From positions 62,001 through 126,000 of the forward strand of contig NZ_LFLT01000001.1 of the NCBI RefSeq assembly GCF_001189955.1: a DNA stretch of 64,000 bases. Direction: 5' to 3'. The notes under the pieces are model-generated. The model was not told where the DNA came from. It saw only the letters and a list, made by a program, of their open reading frames with translations, and did no database searches. This DNA comes from Herbaspirillum chlorophenolicum. Lineage in GTDB: Bacteria; Pseudomonadota; Gammaproteobacteria; Burkholderiales; Burkholderiaceae_D. The number at the start of each line of letters is the position of its first letter. The stretch's first letter is position 1. The translations under genes were made by a program, and so were the position numbers. This document shows, piece after piece, positions 9,449 to 13,487 of this stretch.

Positions 9449-9579
9449 TCTTGAGGATGGAACGGCAGGTCGTGAAGCTGCATGGCAGTACCAAGGCGCG
9501 TCACGCAGCGTGGGTGCGTAGCTGCACTCACGGGGGCAGCCAGCGGCTTGCCCGTTCTTTTCCATGAGAAAATAGCAGC

Positions 9580-10248
9580 ATGCAAAATTCACATCCATCT
9601 GCGCAGAACCTGCGCCCGCTGATCCCGTTGGCCGACTATCAGCGTATCTTCCGCGTCGTGCATTCCGTGCTTCAAAGTGTCGAGGCAGATATTCCGGCCG
9701 CAAGTTTTTTCTTCAGCGTCACCGCAGCACAGATGCTGAAGAAATTTTACAAACGCAATGCGTTTCCCGTTGCAGGCGCTGCGTTCTACCTGATCAACCA
9801 GGAGGGCGGCGGCGCGCTGTCCTTTGGCGTGCTGGGCGACGATGCCCAGGCCGTCTCGAGCAACCATGATGCATTCCACGCCTGGGTCCAATGCGATGGT
9901 TACGCAATCGATTTCATGGCGCCGGTATTTCAGGAATTGCTCGCTGCGGCGGGCCATGCGGTACCGGTGCCGCGCCGTATGTTCCAGAAGGATCTCGGGC
10001 GCATGAGCGCGTCGGCCACGGCGTTGGCGGCGCCGGGCGACTTTTTCCTCAATCCCAATCTTGAGCTGACGCGTGAGTTGCTGCAGCAGTTCATGGCCAA
10101 GAAAGCGCTGACCAACCTGTCGCAAGTGTGCGTGGAGTGGTACCGCAAGCCGCCCAAGGCGATGCCGGACGACCTCGCGCTGCAGGGCGGCGATGGCGAA
10201 GTCGCGCGCATCAGGCTCAATCCCGTGGCGGTCGACGGCGTCTGGTAG
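9580..10248 (+). CDS. DUF2026-family protein
   Basis: A 222-residue soluble protein, no signal peptide or membrane helix. ATG at 9580; the upstream CATGAGAAAATAGCAGC has no strong ribosome site. The pattern is that of DUF2026: LIPLADYQRIFRVVHSVLQS near the N-terminus, then FPVAGAAFYLIN, a central FHAWVQCDGYAIDFMAPVF, and a C-terminal LSQVCVEWYRKPPKAM. The HAW...C...D arrangement in the middle recalls transglutaminase-like or papain-like folds, so a Cys/His/Asp hydrolase is possible, but this is a guess. It has no operon partner; function unknown. Confidence 0.7.
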   Translation: MQNSHPSAQNLRPLIPLADYQRIFRVVHSVLQSVEADIPAASFFFSVTAAQMLKKFYKRNAFPVAGAAFYLINQEGGGALSFGVLGDDAQAVSSNHDAFHAWVQCDGYAIDFMAPVFQELLAAAGHAVPVPRRMFQKDLGRMSASATALAAPGDFFLNPNLELTRELLQQFMAKKALTNLSQVCVEWYRKPPKAMPDDLALQGGDGEVARIRLNPVAVDGVW

Positions 10249-10468
10249 GTATTGCCCGGAATCCGGGTACAGAGGGGGAGTGCTGAAGGTAGAAGGCCGA
10301 GCCTCCGGAGGAGGGTGTGCTGGACGAGTGTCCAACACACCATGCGATCATGCATATCGGTTGCATGTACCGCACTAGAACCAGCAAGATAACCGTCATG
10401 TGTTACGGCAGCGTGACATGCCGGGGCGGCGATAAAAATAATCGAATCCGGTTTCCCCATGGCGCGAT

Positions 10469-10500
10469 GTCATTCCGGTGTCATAAGCCGCCGTTACTAT
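10469..10500 (+). promoter_or_regulatory. candidate promoter of second small RNA, with TGTCAT direct repeat
   Basis: TACTAT at 10495-10500 is a plausible -10. Ten bases upstream ends the second of two TGTCAT words (10469-10474 and 10479-10484). This placement resembles a Pho box feeding a PhoB-type promoter, but the repeat period is 10 and not 11 bp, so the match is imperfect. Confidence 0.3.
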
Positions 10501-10506
10501 CCTGTC

Positions 10507-10570
10507 TGTCTCCTCTGTACCTGTTGCAGATGTTTCGCCTGCGATGCGAGCGCATCGCAGGCTATTTTTT
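10507..10570 (+). ncRNA. second candidate small RNA (about 64 nt) ending in a strong terminator
   Basis: From about 10507 the transcript would begin GTCTCCTCTGTACC, contain a short pyrimidine-rich single-stranded region, and end in the terminator at 10537-10570. It shares the GTCTCCTC 5' start and the order promoter, C/U-rich segment, terminator with the candidate at 8675. No gene lies just upstream to explain the terminator: the DUF2026 gene ends about 290 bp earlier. No coding potential is seen. Confidence 0.4.
10537..10570 (+). terminator. strong intrinsic terminator
   Basis: GCCTGCGATGCG (10537-10548) and CGCATCGCAGGC (10551-10562) are exact complements, a 12-bp stem, followed by TATTTTTT. 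It is either the end of the second candidate small RNA or a distant terminator of the DUF2026 gene. Confidence 0.85.
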
Positions 10571-10847
10571 CTGCGGGCCTTATCCCCGCCATCGAATCCG
10601 ATTTCTGCTGTAGAGCTTCACGCCAAGGCCGGAAGTGGCGTTGTAACCCGGCAGTACGCACACGTGTTGGAAGCTGCGATCCTCCCTTCCCGGCAGGCGA
10701 AAGCTTGATCCGGTCACGCGGCGCGGGGTGCGTCCACACCTGTTCACGATCTTGTCGTGGGTCGTGAACGGGTGACGTCCCGCAGTATTTCTCCCTCCGT
10801 TTTCTCTCCCCTGTTTCGTATGGCCCGTTCCTGCACAACATTGCGCG

Positions 10848-10930
10848 GGAAATGGAATCCCTTTTCTTTTCAATGGCTTGGGCTACTTGTCAAAATCTTT
10901 TCCACAGGCTTACTCCCAAAAAGTGTGGAT
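10848..10930. repeat. DnaA-box-pair repeat, copy A
   Basis: First of three diverged copies. Common core: CAATGGCTT, about 15 bases, CAAAA, TTTTCCACAGGCTT, a few bases, CCAAAA, GTGTGGAT. The copy carries TTTTCCACA and, facing it, TGTGGATAT, each one mismatch from the DnaA box TTATCCACA/TGTGGATAA. Copies A and B also share a left extension ending in ATCCCTTTTC. No coding potential is seen in 10571-11437. Confidence 0.7.
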
Positions 10931-11020
10931 ATCTTTGCCTCTGGCGGATGGATGCTGACCATTCTGACCCGGCCCCATCCGGATGGCCGGGATGGCCTTC
11001 GTTTTGACGCACTTTGCTAC

Positions 11021-11106
11021 GGAAACGGAAATCCCTTTTCGATCAATGGCTTAGCCTGCTTGCTCAAGGGTTTTCCACAGGCTTGCTACCAAAATGTGTG
11101 GATAAG
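11021..11106. repeat. DnaA-box-pair repeat, copy B (contains a consensus DnaA box)
   Basis: Best-preserved copy. It carries TTTTCCACA (8 of 9) and TGTGGATAA (9 of 9 to the DnaA box on the reverse strand) in convergent orientation about 18 bp apart. A further box-like TGGGGATAA lies near 11147, and the palindrome at 11107-11132 follows directly. Confidence 0.75.
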
Positions 11107-11132
11107 CAGGGAGCTTGTGCACAAGCTCCCTG
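11107..11132. repeat. perfect 26-bp palindrome
   Basis: The 26 bases read identically on both strands: CAGGGAGCTTGTG followed at once by its exact reverse complement, with TTGTGCACAA at the centre. One G/T mismatch outside, the match resumes for two more bases each side (11104-11135). It abuts the exact DnaA box of repeat copy B. It lacks a T-run, so it is not a normal terminator. A dimeric protein site or cruciform is possible. Confidence 0.85.
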
Positions 11133-11319
11133 TTTCGGTCAGGCAGTGGGGATAAGTCGTTTTGCAACGAGGATGTTTGCCGGGCGGCAGTATTGCCGCC
11201 AGTTACCACCAGCCAGTCAAAAACCTTGCCTGGTGTGTGATTGCGGCCGATGCATGCAATGCGCAGCGGATGTGTTCGACAGCGGGGCTGCCGTTCAATG
11301 CTCCACAATGCAACGATAG

Positions 11320-11400
11320 TGGGATTGTCTTTTATTTCAATGGCTTAGGCGGCTTTTCAAAACCATATCCACAGGCTTGTACCCAAAATCTGTGAATAAG
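11320..11400. repeat. DnaA-box-pair repeat, copy C
   Basis: Third copy, reading TTTCAATGGCTTAGGC from about 11335, then ATATCCACAGGCTTGTACCC and AAAATCTGTGAATAAG to 11400. The two box-like words (ATATCCACA, TGTGAATAA) each differ from consensus by one base. It ends 38 bp before the stop codon of the convergent DUF3299 gene. Confidence 0.65.
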
Positions 11401-11437
11401 TGGCGATGAAAGGCCGGGGATCCCGGAGCGTCTTGAC

Positions 11438-12205
11438 TCAGCTGTTGTCCGGCTCGGTATAAGGTTCGACCTTCACTGCCGTCATGCTGTAGCCGGCGGC
11501 GCCCATGGACGAGTCGGAACGCTCGACCTTGACCACGCCGCTGATCCAGACCGCATCCATGGTGCGCACGTTCTTGATGGCCTTGCTGCTCTTGACGTGG
11601 ATGATCTGGTTGGCCGGCGGCGGCGGCACGTGGATGCAGGCGCCGAAGTAGGGCACCAGCAGGAATTCCTTGAGCGCCTCGCCTTCGCGGTCGAGCGACA
11701 CGACGAAGCCGGGCAGGCGCACAGCCGCACCTTCCATTGATGGGTCGACCGGCGCATCCTTCCAGTACTTCTTGGCTTTCCACAGCGCGGCGTCGGCGCG
11801 CGGGTCGTTGTCGTCCAACTGGTCCAGCTTGAGGCCCTTGAATGGCGCCATGGCGTCCCAGTCCTTGGGGATCAGGCTTTCCCAGGCGATTTCGCGGTAG
11901 CCGCCGACCATCTTGCCGGAGGCTTTGTAAGGCTGGTCGGTGACGGTGGCGCTTTGCTTGAGGTGGTCGCCGACCTGATATTGCCCATCCGATGCGGCGG
12001 CAACGCCGGTGACCGTGCTGCCGGCATCGGCGCGCGCCGTGACGGCGGGCACTGCTCCGGCCAGCGGGGCGCCTGCGGTTTGCGGTATGGCCGCGGCGGC
12101 GGGCGTCGCGGCCGCTTCGTCGCCGGAATGCGCGGCCAGGCGTACACCGGTGCCGATCAGCAGGCCGGCGGCGGCGATGCCGCCTATCCAGTAGAGAGTT
12201 TTCAT
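11438..12205 (-). CDS. DUF3299 periplasmic protein (zrg-type zinc locus)
   Basis: 255 residues with an N-terminal membrane anchor or signal (MKTLYWIGGIAAAGLLIGTG), an Ala/Pro-rich linker to about residue 85, then a DUF3299 domain: REIAWESLIPKDWD, LPGFVVSLDREGEALKEFLL and the family hallmark GACIHVPPPPANQIIHV. DUF3299 proteins are exported and commonly lie beside a MacB/FtsX-type permease, LolD-like ATPase and DUF2796 gene, as here and in the Zur-controlled zrg locus of Vibrio cholerae. It starts 14 bp after the permease gene's stop and is the last gene of this unit. Its molecular role is not known to me. Confidence 0.8.
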   Translation of the reverse strand: MKTLYWIGGIAAAGLLIGTGVRLAAHSGDEAAATPAAAAIPQTAGAPLAGAVPAVTARADAGSTVTGVAAASDGQYQVGDHLKQSATVTDQPYKASGKMVGGYREIAWESLIPKDWDAMAPFKGLKLDQLDDNDPRADAALWKAKKYWKDAPVDPSMEGAAVRLPGFVVSLDREGEALKEFLLVPYFGACIHVPPPPANQIIHVKSSKAIKNVRTMDAVWISGVVKVERSDSSMGAAGYSMTAVKVEPYTEPDNS

Positions 12206-12218
12206 GTCGATTGCAGGT

Positions 12219-13487
12219 TCAAATTCTTGGCGTCAGGCCGTCGGACAGGCTGAGCCTGTAGGCGCGCAGGCCCGGCAGCAGGCTGGCGGCGAAACCGGCG
12301 GCAACGGTCCAGAGCAGCAATTGTAATTCGCCTGCGGACGGCCATGCAGGCTGCAGCGCGATGCCGAACTGCGCCGCCAGCGTCGGCCCCAGCGCCAGCA
12401 GCAGGACGGTGAGAAGCAGCACGCCCGACACCACGCCGGCCAGCATCACACCCAGGCCTTCGATGGACAGCAGGATGAAGACATCCCAAGGACGCGCGCC
12501 GACCGAACGCAGGATGGCCAGTTCGCGCCGGCGCTCGCCCAGGCTGGCGAGGATGGCCGCCACCAGTCCGGCCAGGCCGACCACCACCACCATGCCGGAC
12601 ACCACCAGCAGCGCGTTTTCGCCGATGCCGACCACGTCCCACAACTGGTCCAGCGCGACGCCGGGCAGCACCGCCATCAGCGGTTCCTTGAAGCCTTCGC
12701 CATCGGCGATGTCGCGTTGCACGGCGAACACCCGCGCACGGCTCTTCAGGCCGACCAGCACGGCGGTGATGCTCTTGGGCGTGAGGTCGAATTTCTTGAC
12801 CAGCGCCGGCGCGATGTGAAGTCCGGGCAGCGGGGCGCCGCCTTCCCAGTCGAGATGGATGGCTTCCATCGCGTCCAGGCCGATGTGCACCGTACGGTCC
12901 ACCGGCGTGCCGGTGCGCGCCAGGATGCCGGTGACCACGAAGGGTTTGTCGGCGTGCTGGGCCAGGTGGGCGCTGCCCATGCCGTGCGCCAGCACGATGC
13001 GGTCGCCCGGTTTGTAATGCAGCTTGTCGGCGACTTCGGCGCCGAGCACGGTCTCGAACACGTCGGCGAAAGGACGGCCCTGCACCAGTTGCAGTGCCTT
13101 TCCGTCGCCGTAATGGAAATGCCGGAAGTAGTCGCCGTTGGTGGCCAGCACCGGGAAACCGCGGTGCGAGTCGCCCAGCGAGATCGGGATGGTCCAGGCC
13201 ACGGCCGGGTTGCGCGCCAGCGCCTGGGCGCTGTCCCAGCCCATGTTGTTGGTGGCGCCGCCGATGCGGAAGATCGCGTACAGCATCAGCTGGATCGGGC
13301 TGGTGCGCGCGCCCACCACCAGGTCGGTGCCCGATACCGATTGCGAGAAGCCGGCGCGCACGTCATGGCGCACGCGCTCGATGCCCAGCAGCATGGTGGT
13401 GGAAAGGGCGATGGCCAGTAGCATCAGGCCCAGCGTGAAACGGCGGTTCCATGCGCTTTTCGTGGCCAGGCGCAGCAGTGTCCTCAT
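12219..13487 (-). CDS. FtsX/MacB-like ABC transporter permease (zrg-type zinc locus)
   Basis: 422 residues. The ATG at 13487-13485 overlaps the ATPase stop by 4 bases (ATGA), indicating coupled translation; longer upstream frames would run deep into the ATPase gene. One helix near the N-terminus (FTLGLMLLAIALSTTMLLGI), a large periplasmic domain of about 240 residues (SGTDLVVGARTSPIQLMLYA onward), then three C-terminal helices with the FtsX-type loop RRRELAILRSVGARPWDVF. This architecture is that of LolC/MacB-type mechanotransmission permeases, not of importers. With the next gene it probably drives extraction or handling of a periplasmic or outer-membrane partner in zinc acquisition (inference from context). 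Confidence 0.85.
   Translation of the reverse strand: MRTLLRLATKSAWNRRFTLGLMLLAIALSTTMLLGIERVRHDVRAGFSQSVSGTDLVVGARTSPIQLMLYAIFRIGGATNNMGWDSAQALARNPAVAWTIPISLGDSHRGFPVLATNGDYFRHFHYGDGKALQLVQGRPFADVFETVLGAEVADKLHYKPGDRIVLAHGMGSAHLAQHADKPFVVTGILARTGTPVDRTVHIGLDAMEAIHLDWEGGAPLPGLHIAPALVKKFDLTPKSITAVLVGLKSRARVFAVQRDIADGEGFKEPLMAVLPGVALDQLWDVVGIGENALLVVSGMVVVVGLAGLVAAILASLGERRRELAILRSVGARPWDVFILLSIEGLGVMLAGVVSGVLLLTVLLLALGPTLAAQFGIALQPAWPSAGELQLLLWTVAAGFAASLLPGLRAYRLSLSDGLTPRI

Follow-up and report, generated by a model that had tools for sequence, protein, structure and literature searches.

The recharging of DnaA by DNA sites has been worked out in E. coli, where DARS1, DARS2 and datA are the systems closest to the array described here. 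Passages in PMC10380432 and PMC8682772 name facing boxes I and II as characteristic of DARS, and the former also calls them essential; for DARS2, a passage in PMC4245941 describes facing boxes with IHF sites beyond box III, and according to a passage in PMC4585315 DARS1 requires no protein factor. In the E. coli sequences we found that DARS1 consists of TTATCCACT, a reverse box 14 bp on and a second reverse box 12 bp further, and that DARS2 has the same distances of 14 and 12, with two IHF sites (at most one mismatch) beyond the third box; at DARS1, no IHF match within one mismatch occurs in the 700 bp scanned. Both sites can be written as I, 14, II, 12, III or, when reversed, as III, 12, II, 14, I, with a span of 26 from III to I. 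At datA, an exact IHF site lies between two same-direction DnaA boxes that are 162 bp apart, and no 12/14 core is present among its boxes within one mismatch. Its loss leads to a higher origin number, as stated in a passage of PMC12371093. The passages at hand are at odds on the spread of DARS: DARS-like sequences are placed in many proteobacteria (PMC10380432) or in beta- or gamma-proteobacteria proximal to E. coli (PMC5742627), and the DARS2 core is described as confined to relatives of E. coli among the gamma-proteobacteria (PMC4245941). Our literature searches gave no hit for Herbaspirillum together with DnaA box and oriC, only plasmid work for betaproteobacterial DnaA boxes and DARS, and only a Laribacter genome analysis for hemE, priA and DnaA box; among the titles and abstract openings retrieved, none described arrays of the kind reported here.

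The array lies in a window of 64,000 nucleotides of Herbaspirillum chlorophenolicum, by which we mean the whole stretch of DNA that was analysed. A preliminary description of this window had pointed out three diverged repeats in a gene-free kilobase, each with two DnaA-box-like words facing each other. We could recover all of these elements (Table 1): the repeats are direct, align without gaps at 71-72% identity to copy A, start 173 (A-B) and 294 nt (B-C) apart and lie between convergent genes for a DUF2026 and a DUF3299 protein. Of 16 named relatives of the DUF2026 protein, 15 bear the genus name Herbaspirillum and one the label Duganella. Every copy has its facing pair, every paired word is at most one base from TTATCCACA, which is exact in copy B, and the additional TTATCCCCA reported near 11147 is found at 11147-11155. 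As other candidate explanations we considered a coding role (in the ORF list, which starts at 80 aa, no frame spans all three copies), an RNA element (Rfam gave no match for 9500-12500 at E-values up to 1, and 34 copies yielded no consensus fold) and a promoter of a neighbouring gene (both genes converge on the array), and rejected each of them. The palindrome behind copy B has no T-run; its stem is kept with other bases in two relatives (G021 and G002).

Table 1. Features of the array and its surroundings (positions in the window; mismatches counted by hand against WATCAANNNNTTR for IHF and TTWTNCACA for box II)
Feature	Position	Strand	Sequence	Remark
DUF2026 protein gene (left neighbour)	9580-10248	+		directed towards array
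Terminator-like hairpin	10537-10562			downstream of DUF2026 gene
Copy A	10832-10931			reference for identity, 100 nt
Copy A, IHF-like site	10868-10880	+	TTTCAATGGCTTG	1 mismatch
Copy A, DnaA box III	10898-10906	+	TTTTCCACA	box scan
Copy A, degenerate box II position	10910-10918	+	TTACTCCCA	2 mismatches
Copy A, DnaA box I	10924-10932	-	ATATCCACA	box scan
Copy B	11005-11104			72% identical to copy A over 100 nt
Copy B, IHF-like site	11041-11053	+	GATCAATGGCTTA	1 mismatch
Copy B, DnaA box III	11071-11079	+	TTTTCCACA	box scan
Copy B, degenerate box II position	11083-11091	+	TTGCTACCA	4 mismatches
Copy B, DnaA box I	11097-11105	-	TTATCCACA	exact, box scan
Palindrome	11104-11135	.	centre TTGTGCACAA / GCTTGTGCACAAGC	16-nt arms, 94% complementary, immediately 3' of copy B
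Copy C	11299-11398			71% identical to copy A over 100 nt
Copy C, IHF-like site	11335-11347	+	TTTCAATGGCTTA	1 mismatch
Copy C, DnaA box III	11365-11373	+	ATATCCACA	box scan
Copy C, degenerate box II position	11377-11385	+	TTGTACCCA	2 mismatches
Copy C, DnaA box I	11391-11399	-	TTATTCACA	box scan
DUF3299 protein gene (right neighbour)	11438-12205	-		directed towards array

Two elements had been overlooked in that description, namely an IHF consensus site 17 bp ahead of the first box, formed as an IHF-type site by the CAATGGCTT part of the repeats, and a degenerate box position in the middle, which gives the spacing of DARS. The distance between boxes III and I is 26 in all three copies, and the order III, 12, II, 14, I can be laid over each of them, the +12 position being the best one for box II though a weak one; a functional head-to-head pair of boxes I and II is not found, given the two, four and two mismatches of box II in copies A, B and C. 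The IHF-type site, one mismatch off in every copy, is on the box III side as in DARS2; no exact match to the IHF consensus exists anywhere in the 64 kb. The window has no surplus of single DnaA boxes (8 versus 5.1 expected; 17 of 100 shuffles reach as many), but seven of the eight are packed within 502 bp. DARS2 and the array share facing boxes, IHF beyond box III and the distances of 12 and 14 bp between the three box positions; the array differs from DARS2 in its degenerate box II, in the distance of IHF from box III (17 bp versus 58 or 74 bp) and in having one to seven modules where DARS2 has a single core. DARS1 has the same box spacing, and here the IHF-type sites of the array set the two apart. 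On the grounds of this layout we lean slightly towards reading the array as tandem DARS-like DnaA-reactivation modules. IHF would bind WATCAANNNNTTR and introduce a bend 17 bp from box III; DnaA would bind the strong facing boxes III and I, 26 bp apart, with the weak box II position between them being occupied only in the assembled complex. The facing AAA+ domains of DnaA could then meet and bring about ADP release, as proposed for DARS, and the number of modules might set the rate at which ADP-DnaA is recharged. What we infer for the array is that the proteins bind, that nucleotide is exchanged and that the timing of initiation is affected; IHF alpha is encoded in the genome, and domain IV of its DnaA retains the RDHTT motif.

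The modules, their IHF site, their box geometry, their orthology and their constraint are apparent from sequence comparison within the genus. In a first search, 29 of the 34 genomes of the genus, the own genome included, had the array, and G009, G016, G024, G027 and G028 gave none; a one-copy module was later found in the locus of G009. For synteny, which the preliminary description had suggested checking, we compared 24 relatives chosen for having a match (G003, G017, G018 and G022, also with matches, were left out) and found the array in the same gap and in the same orientation in 24 of 24 loci. The number of module matches per locus was six in eight loci, five in four, three in three, seven in one and one in seven; a further locus has two matches, only one of them inside the gap, so that the gap holds a single module in 8 of 24 loci and the copy number ranges from 1 to 7. 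The module profile was built from 111 copies of 29 genus genomes, after dropping 8 of 119 nhmmer matches (seven because L091 repeats L065, and one because it lay too close to a contig end); two of the copies come from the second site of the own genome described below (L011) and one (L090) entered without a site check. The conserved columns of the profile are TCAA-N4-TT followed by A or G, TTnTCCACA, and TGTGGATA, after which T or A predominates, and GGCTTGCYMCCAAAA between the boxes is likewise conserved, with the third base of the first box being free. The first of these blocks is the IHF consensus WATCAANNNNTTR, as quoted in a passage of PMC10380432, with the invariants TCAA....TT[AG]. This consensus is exact in 77 copies, with one mismatch in 29 and two in 5. 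Box II has decayed to TTGCYMCCA in Herbaspirillum (two mismatches in 14 copies, three in 27 and four in 70); still, +12 on the same strand is the best middle box among offsets 9-18 with a mean of 3.5 mismatches, the second best being +11 with 3.98.

In 12 of 13 species pairs, identity was higher at module positions than in the remainder of the gap, e.g. 97% versus 82% between the own genome and its nearest relative (G021), 94 versus 72% for G000-G002 (G000 being the own genome), 91 versus 73% for G005-G030 and 89 versus 63% for G029-G019. In the thirteenth pair, three copies against one, the modules scored lower (25% versus 33%), because two thirds of the module positions fell in gaps. The spacings from copy to copy cluster near 130, 150, 162, 173 and 183, and their best period is 10.55 bp (R 0.65; none of 2000 jittered sets as high) for the 68 values of all arrays and 10.35 (R 0.53; again none of 2000) for the 42 values of a reduced array set. 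With each spacing value counted once, all arrays together give P 0.019 for a period of 10.5 and 0.07 across periods of 8-14, and the reduced set gives 0.03 and 0.12, respectively; helical phasing is thus weak when values are counted once, and the arrays are of common ancestry.

Outside the genus, we searched with a sequence-only model made from 34 Herbaspirillum copies, which matched 169 of the 245 genomes of the family and 30 of 44 genera, with rough E-values and many weak matches. From 25 of these loci (12 taken from the search output and 13 chosen by hand) we read 35 distinct modules belonging to seven genera, the frame of each module being set within 3 bp for the lowest mismatch total. Box II at +12 from box III has no mismatch in 5 of them, one in 9, two in 17 and three in 4. 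The search model was made from copies devoid of a box II and so had no means of favouring it; all 14 modules with no or one mismatch come from two genera (g52 and g56). IHF is exact in 10 of the 35, one off in 15, two off in 9 and three off in 1, which is in part by construction; in every module the best IHF match is separated from box III by a tight 16 or 17. Groups of three to six modules occur at L175, L178, L182 and L183. In L178, L179 and L184 one module each lies inside a predicted ORF, hence modules outside the genus are not all intergenic.

The weak box II is the main ground for doubting the DARS reading and leaves room for titration or a datA-like action, and the confinement of an intact box II to two other genera lowers the former and raises the latter. 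In this main rival explanation, which we consider possible though unlikely, the boxes and IHF would hold DnaA or stimulate ATP hydrolysis and in this way lower free ATP-DnaA. It would fit the strong boxes III and I around a weak II, a copy number of 1-7 such as a dosage device might show, and the position of IHF between same-direction boxes of neighbouring copies, which is the arrangement of E. coli datA (copies A and B are 173 bp apart, compared with the 162 bp of the datA boxes). However, the flanked IHF site is found only between neighbouring copies and is absent from the 8 of 24 loci with a single module, so it is not conserved; the 12/14 geometry is that of DARS and is not seen among the datA boxes with at most one mismatch; and titration alone needs no IHF site at a fixed distance.

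The three-box geometry of DARS also occurs outside the arrays. Searching for the bare core with at most two mismatches, a pattern independent of IHF and of the model and in which origin matches were not separated, we found matches in 296 of 369 genomes of the class, compared with three matches for the reversed pattern. In the own genome the pattern hits two cores between hemE and priA (genes named by eye), C105:108439 and copy C of the window; copies A and B have more than two mismatches. The two DARS2-like hemE-priA cores (C2:49058-49457 of G000, L010:1559-1958) are located at C2:49058 and 49423, a distance of 365 bp, and in both an exact IHF site lies 83-84 bp from box III. Pairs of this type, 365-375 bp apart, are present in all seven closed Herbaspirillum genomes searched; their flanking genes were viewed in the own genome, G019 and G031. 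Like the array, this double core follows the order III, 12, II, 14, I and carries IHF on the side of box III, but its box II is intact and its IHF sites are 83-85 bp away and in the opposite sense. Among 40 distinct cores from 11 closed genomes (seven Herbaspirillum and four of other genera), an exact IHF site is found within 200 bp of 23 on their III side and of none on the other side, and 22 of these 23 sites are 83-85 bp away. The 22 cores belong to hemE-priA-type pairs, 14 of them in the seven Herbaspirillum genomes and 8 in the four others. A count over 35,280 bp of flank gave no exact IHF match. For 29 cores from other loci of the class, IHF was found 7 and 4 times on the two sides versus 0.8 expected per side; the association of core and IHF is clear in the family and weaker elsewhere in the class.

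Herbaspirillum and some of its relatives thus keep a version of the three-box core in the form of multi-copy, IHF-linked arrays. As a tentative extension, we propose that helically phased arrays of IHF sites and DARS cores across the taxonomic family of Herbaspirillum may form a new class of DnaA-recharging sites, in which the weakening of box II in Herbaspirillum would make DnaA assembly depend on the nucleotide state or on bending by IHF, and initiation would be tuned by copy number. The kin of the array offer a test of DnaA recharging beyond E. coli, as a natural series with one to seven modules, box II intact or lost and IHF near or far, from which it may be learned which parts of such sites matter.

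It appears improbable to us that DnaA and IHF serve another purpose at this site, structural or regulatory, for instance by controlling a local transcript, pausing forks or folding the chromosome. DnaA and IHF are both transcription factors, and the palindrome after copy B, with its changing stem bases in three species, would suit such a role; yet both neighbouring genes point at the array, which is thus downstream of both, promoter-like matches number 2 compared with a shuffle mean of 0.9 (sd 0.8), and, as mentioned above, there is neither an Rfam match nor a consensus fold.

An origin or reserve origin of replication, for which the clustered DnaA boxes with an IHF-type site might be taken, is very improbable. 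As the preliminary description had stated, no dnaA is nearby and no AT-rich unwinding stretch is evident: dnaA and an AT-rich, box-bearing region are on another contig, and the lowest G+C of any 100 bp in the gap is 0.41 versus 0.35 in that origin-like region, so that the array lacks the AT-rich unwinding stretch with boxes near dnaA that marks an oriC. The origin-like region (L009:2830-3860, C101) is some 5.9 kb upstream of dnaA and has two similar AT-rich halves on either side of a small ORF judged ferredoxin-like by eye. Along the arm from dnaA to dif, the array of five closed genomes is located at 0.636-0.670, which amounts to one observation and not five because the surrounding genes keep their order within the genus, and the hemE-priA-type pairs are nearer to the origin, at 0.172-0.235. 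Computed with the oriC and dif positions of E. coli, the corresponding fractions there are 0.66 for DARS1, close to the 0.64-0.67 of the array, 0.20 for datA and 0.41 for DARS2. These arm positions come from five of the seven closed genus genomes, using a dif-like site with three mismatches to the consensus; G029 was left out as no dif match was found, and so was G031, whose sole dif-like match at 1.10 Mb of its 4.97 Mb single-contig genome is unfit for balanced arms and hints at a rearrangement or a mobile dif copy. The preference of the preliminary description for a datA/DARS-like locus over an origin is supported, at the level of sequence, by the DARS core spacing, the side of the IHF site, the orthology and the lack of a dispersed repeat.

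Diverged direct repeats of varying number could also be an ordinary repeat family with no replication function, a reading to which we give hardly any credence in view of only five copies at two sites, the same gap in 24 of 24 loci, the constraint on the modules and their presence in other genera. Equal clusters at many intergenic sites, which the preliminary description had named as an argument for such a family, are not seen: in the 5.3 Mb genome, facing pairs (TNCACA, 5-30, TGTGNATA) occur at only three places, namely the array, hemE-priA and the origin region (5 forward and 4 reverse matches; 0 and 0 for the reversed pattern as a control). A dispersed repeat was likewise rejected, the window-type module being present in the own genome as the three copies of the window and two copies at one other site (E up to 0.001). 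This second site (C105:155800-156060 of G000, L011:999-1262) has pairs resembling it in G002, G010, G015, G020, G021 and G033, and its neighbouring genes are convergent in five of six loci (own, G015, G020, G021 and G033), G002 being ambiguous. Another three-box core, with one mismatch, is found at C105:108439-108473 of the own genome, and similar ones in G015, G019, G020, G025 and G029.
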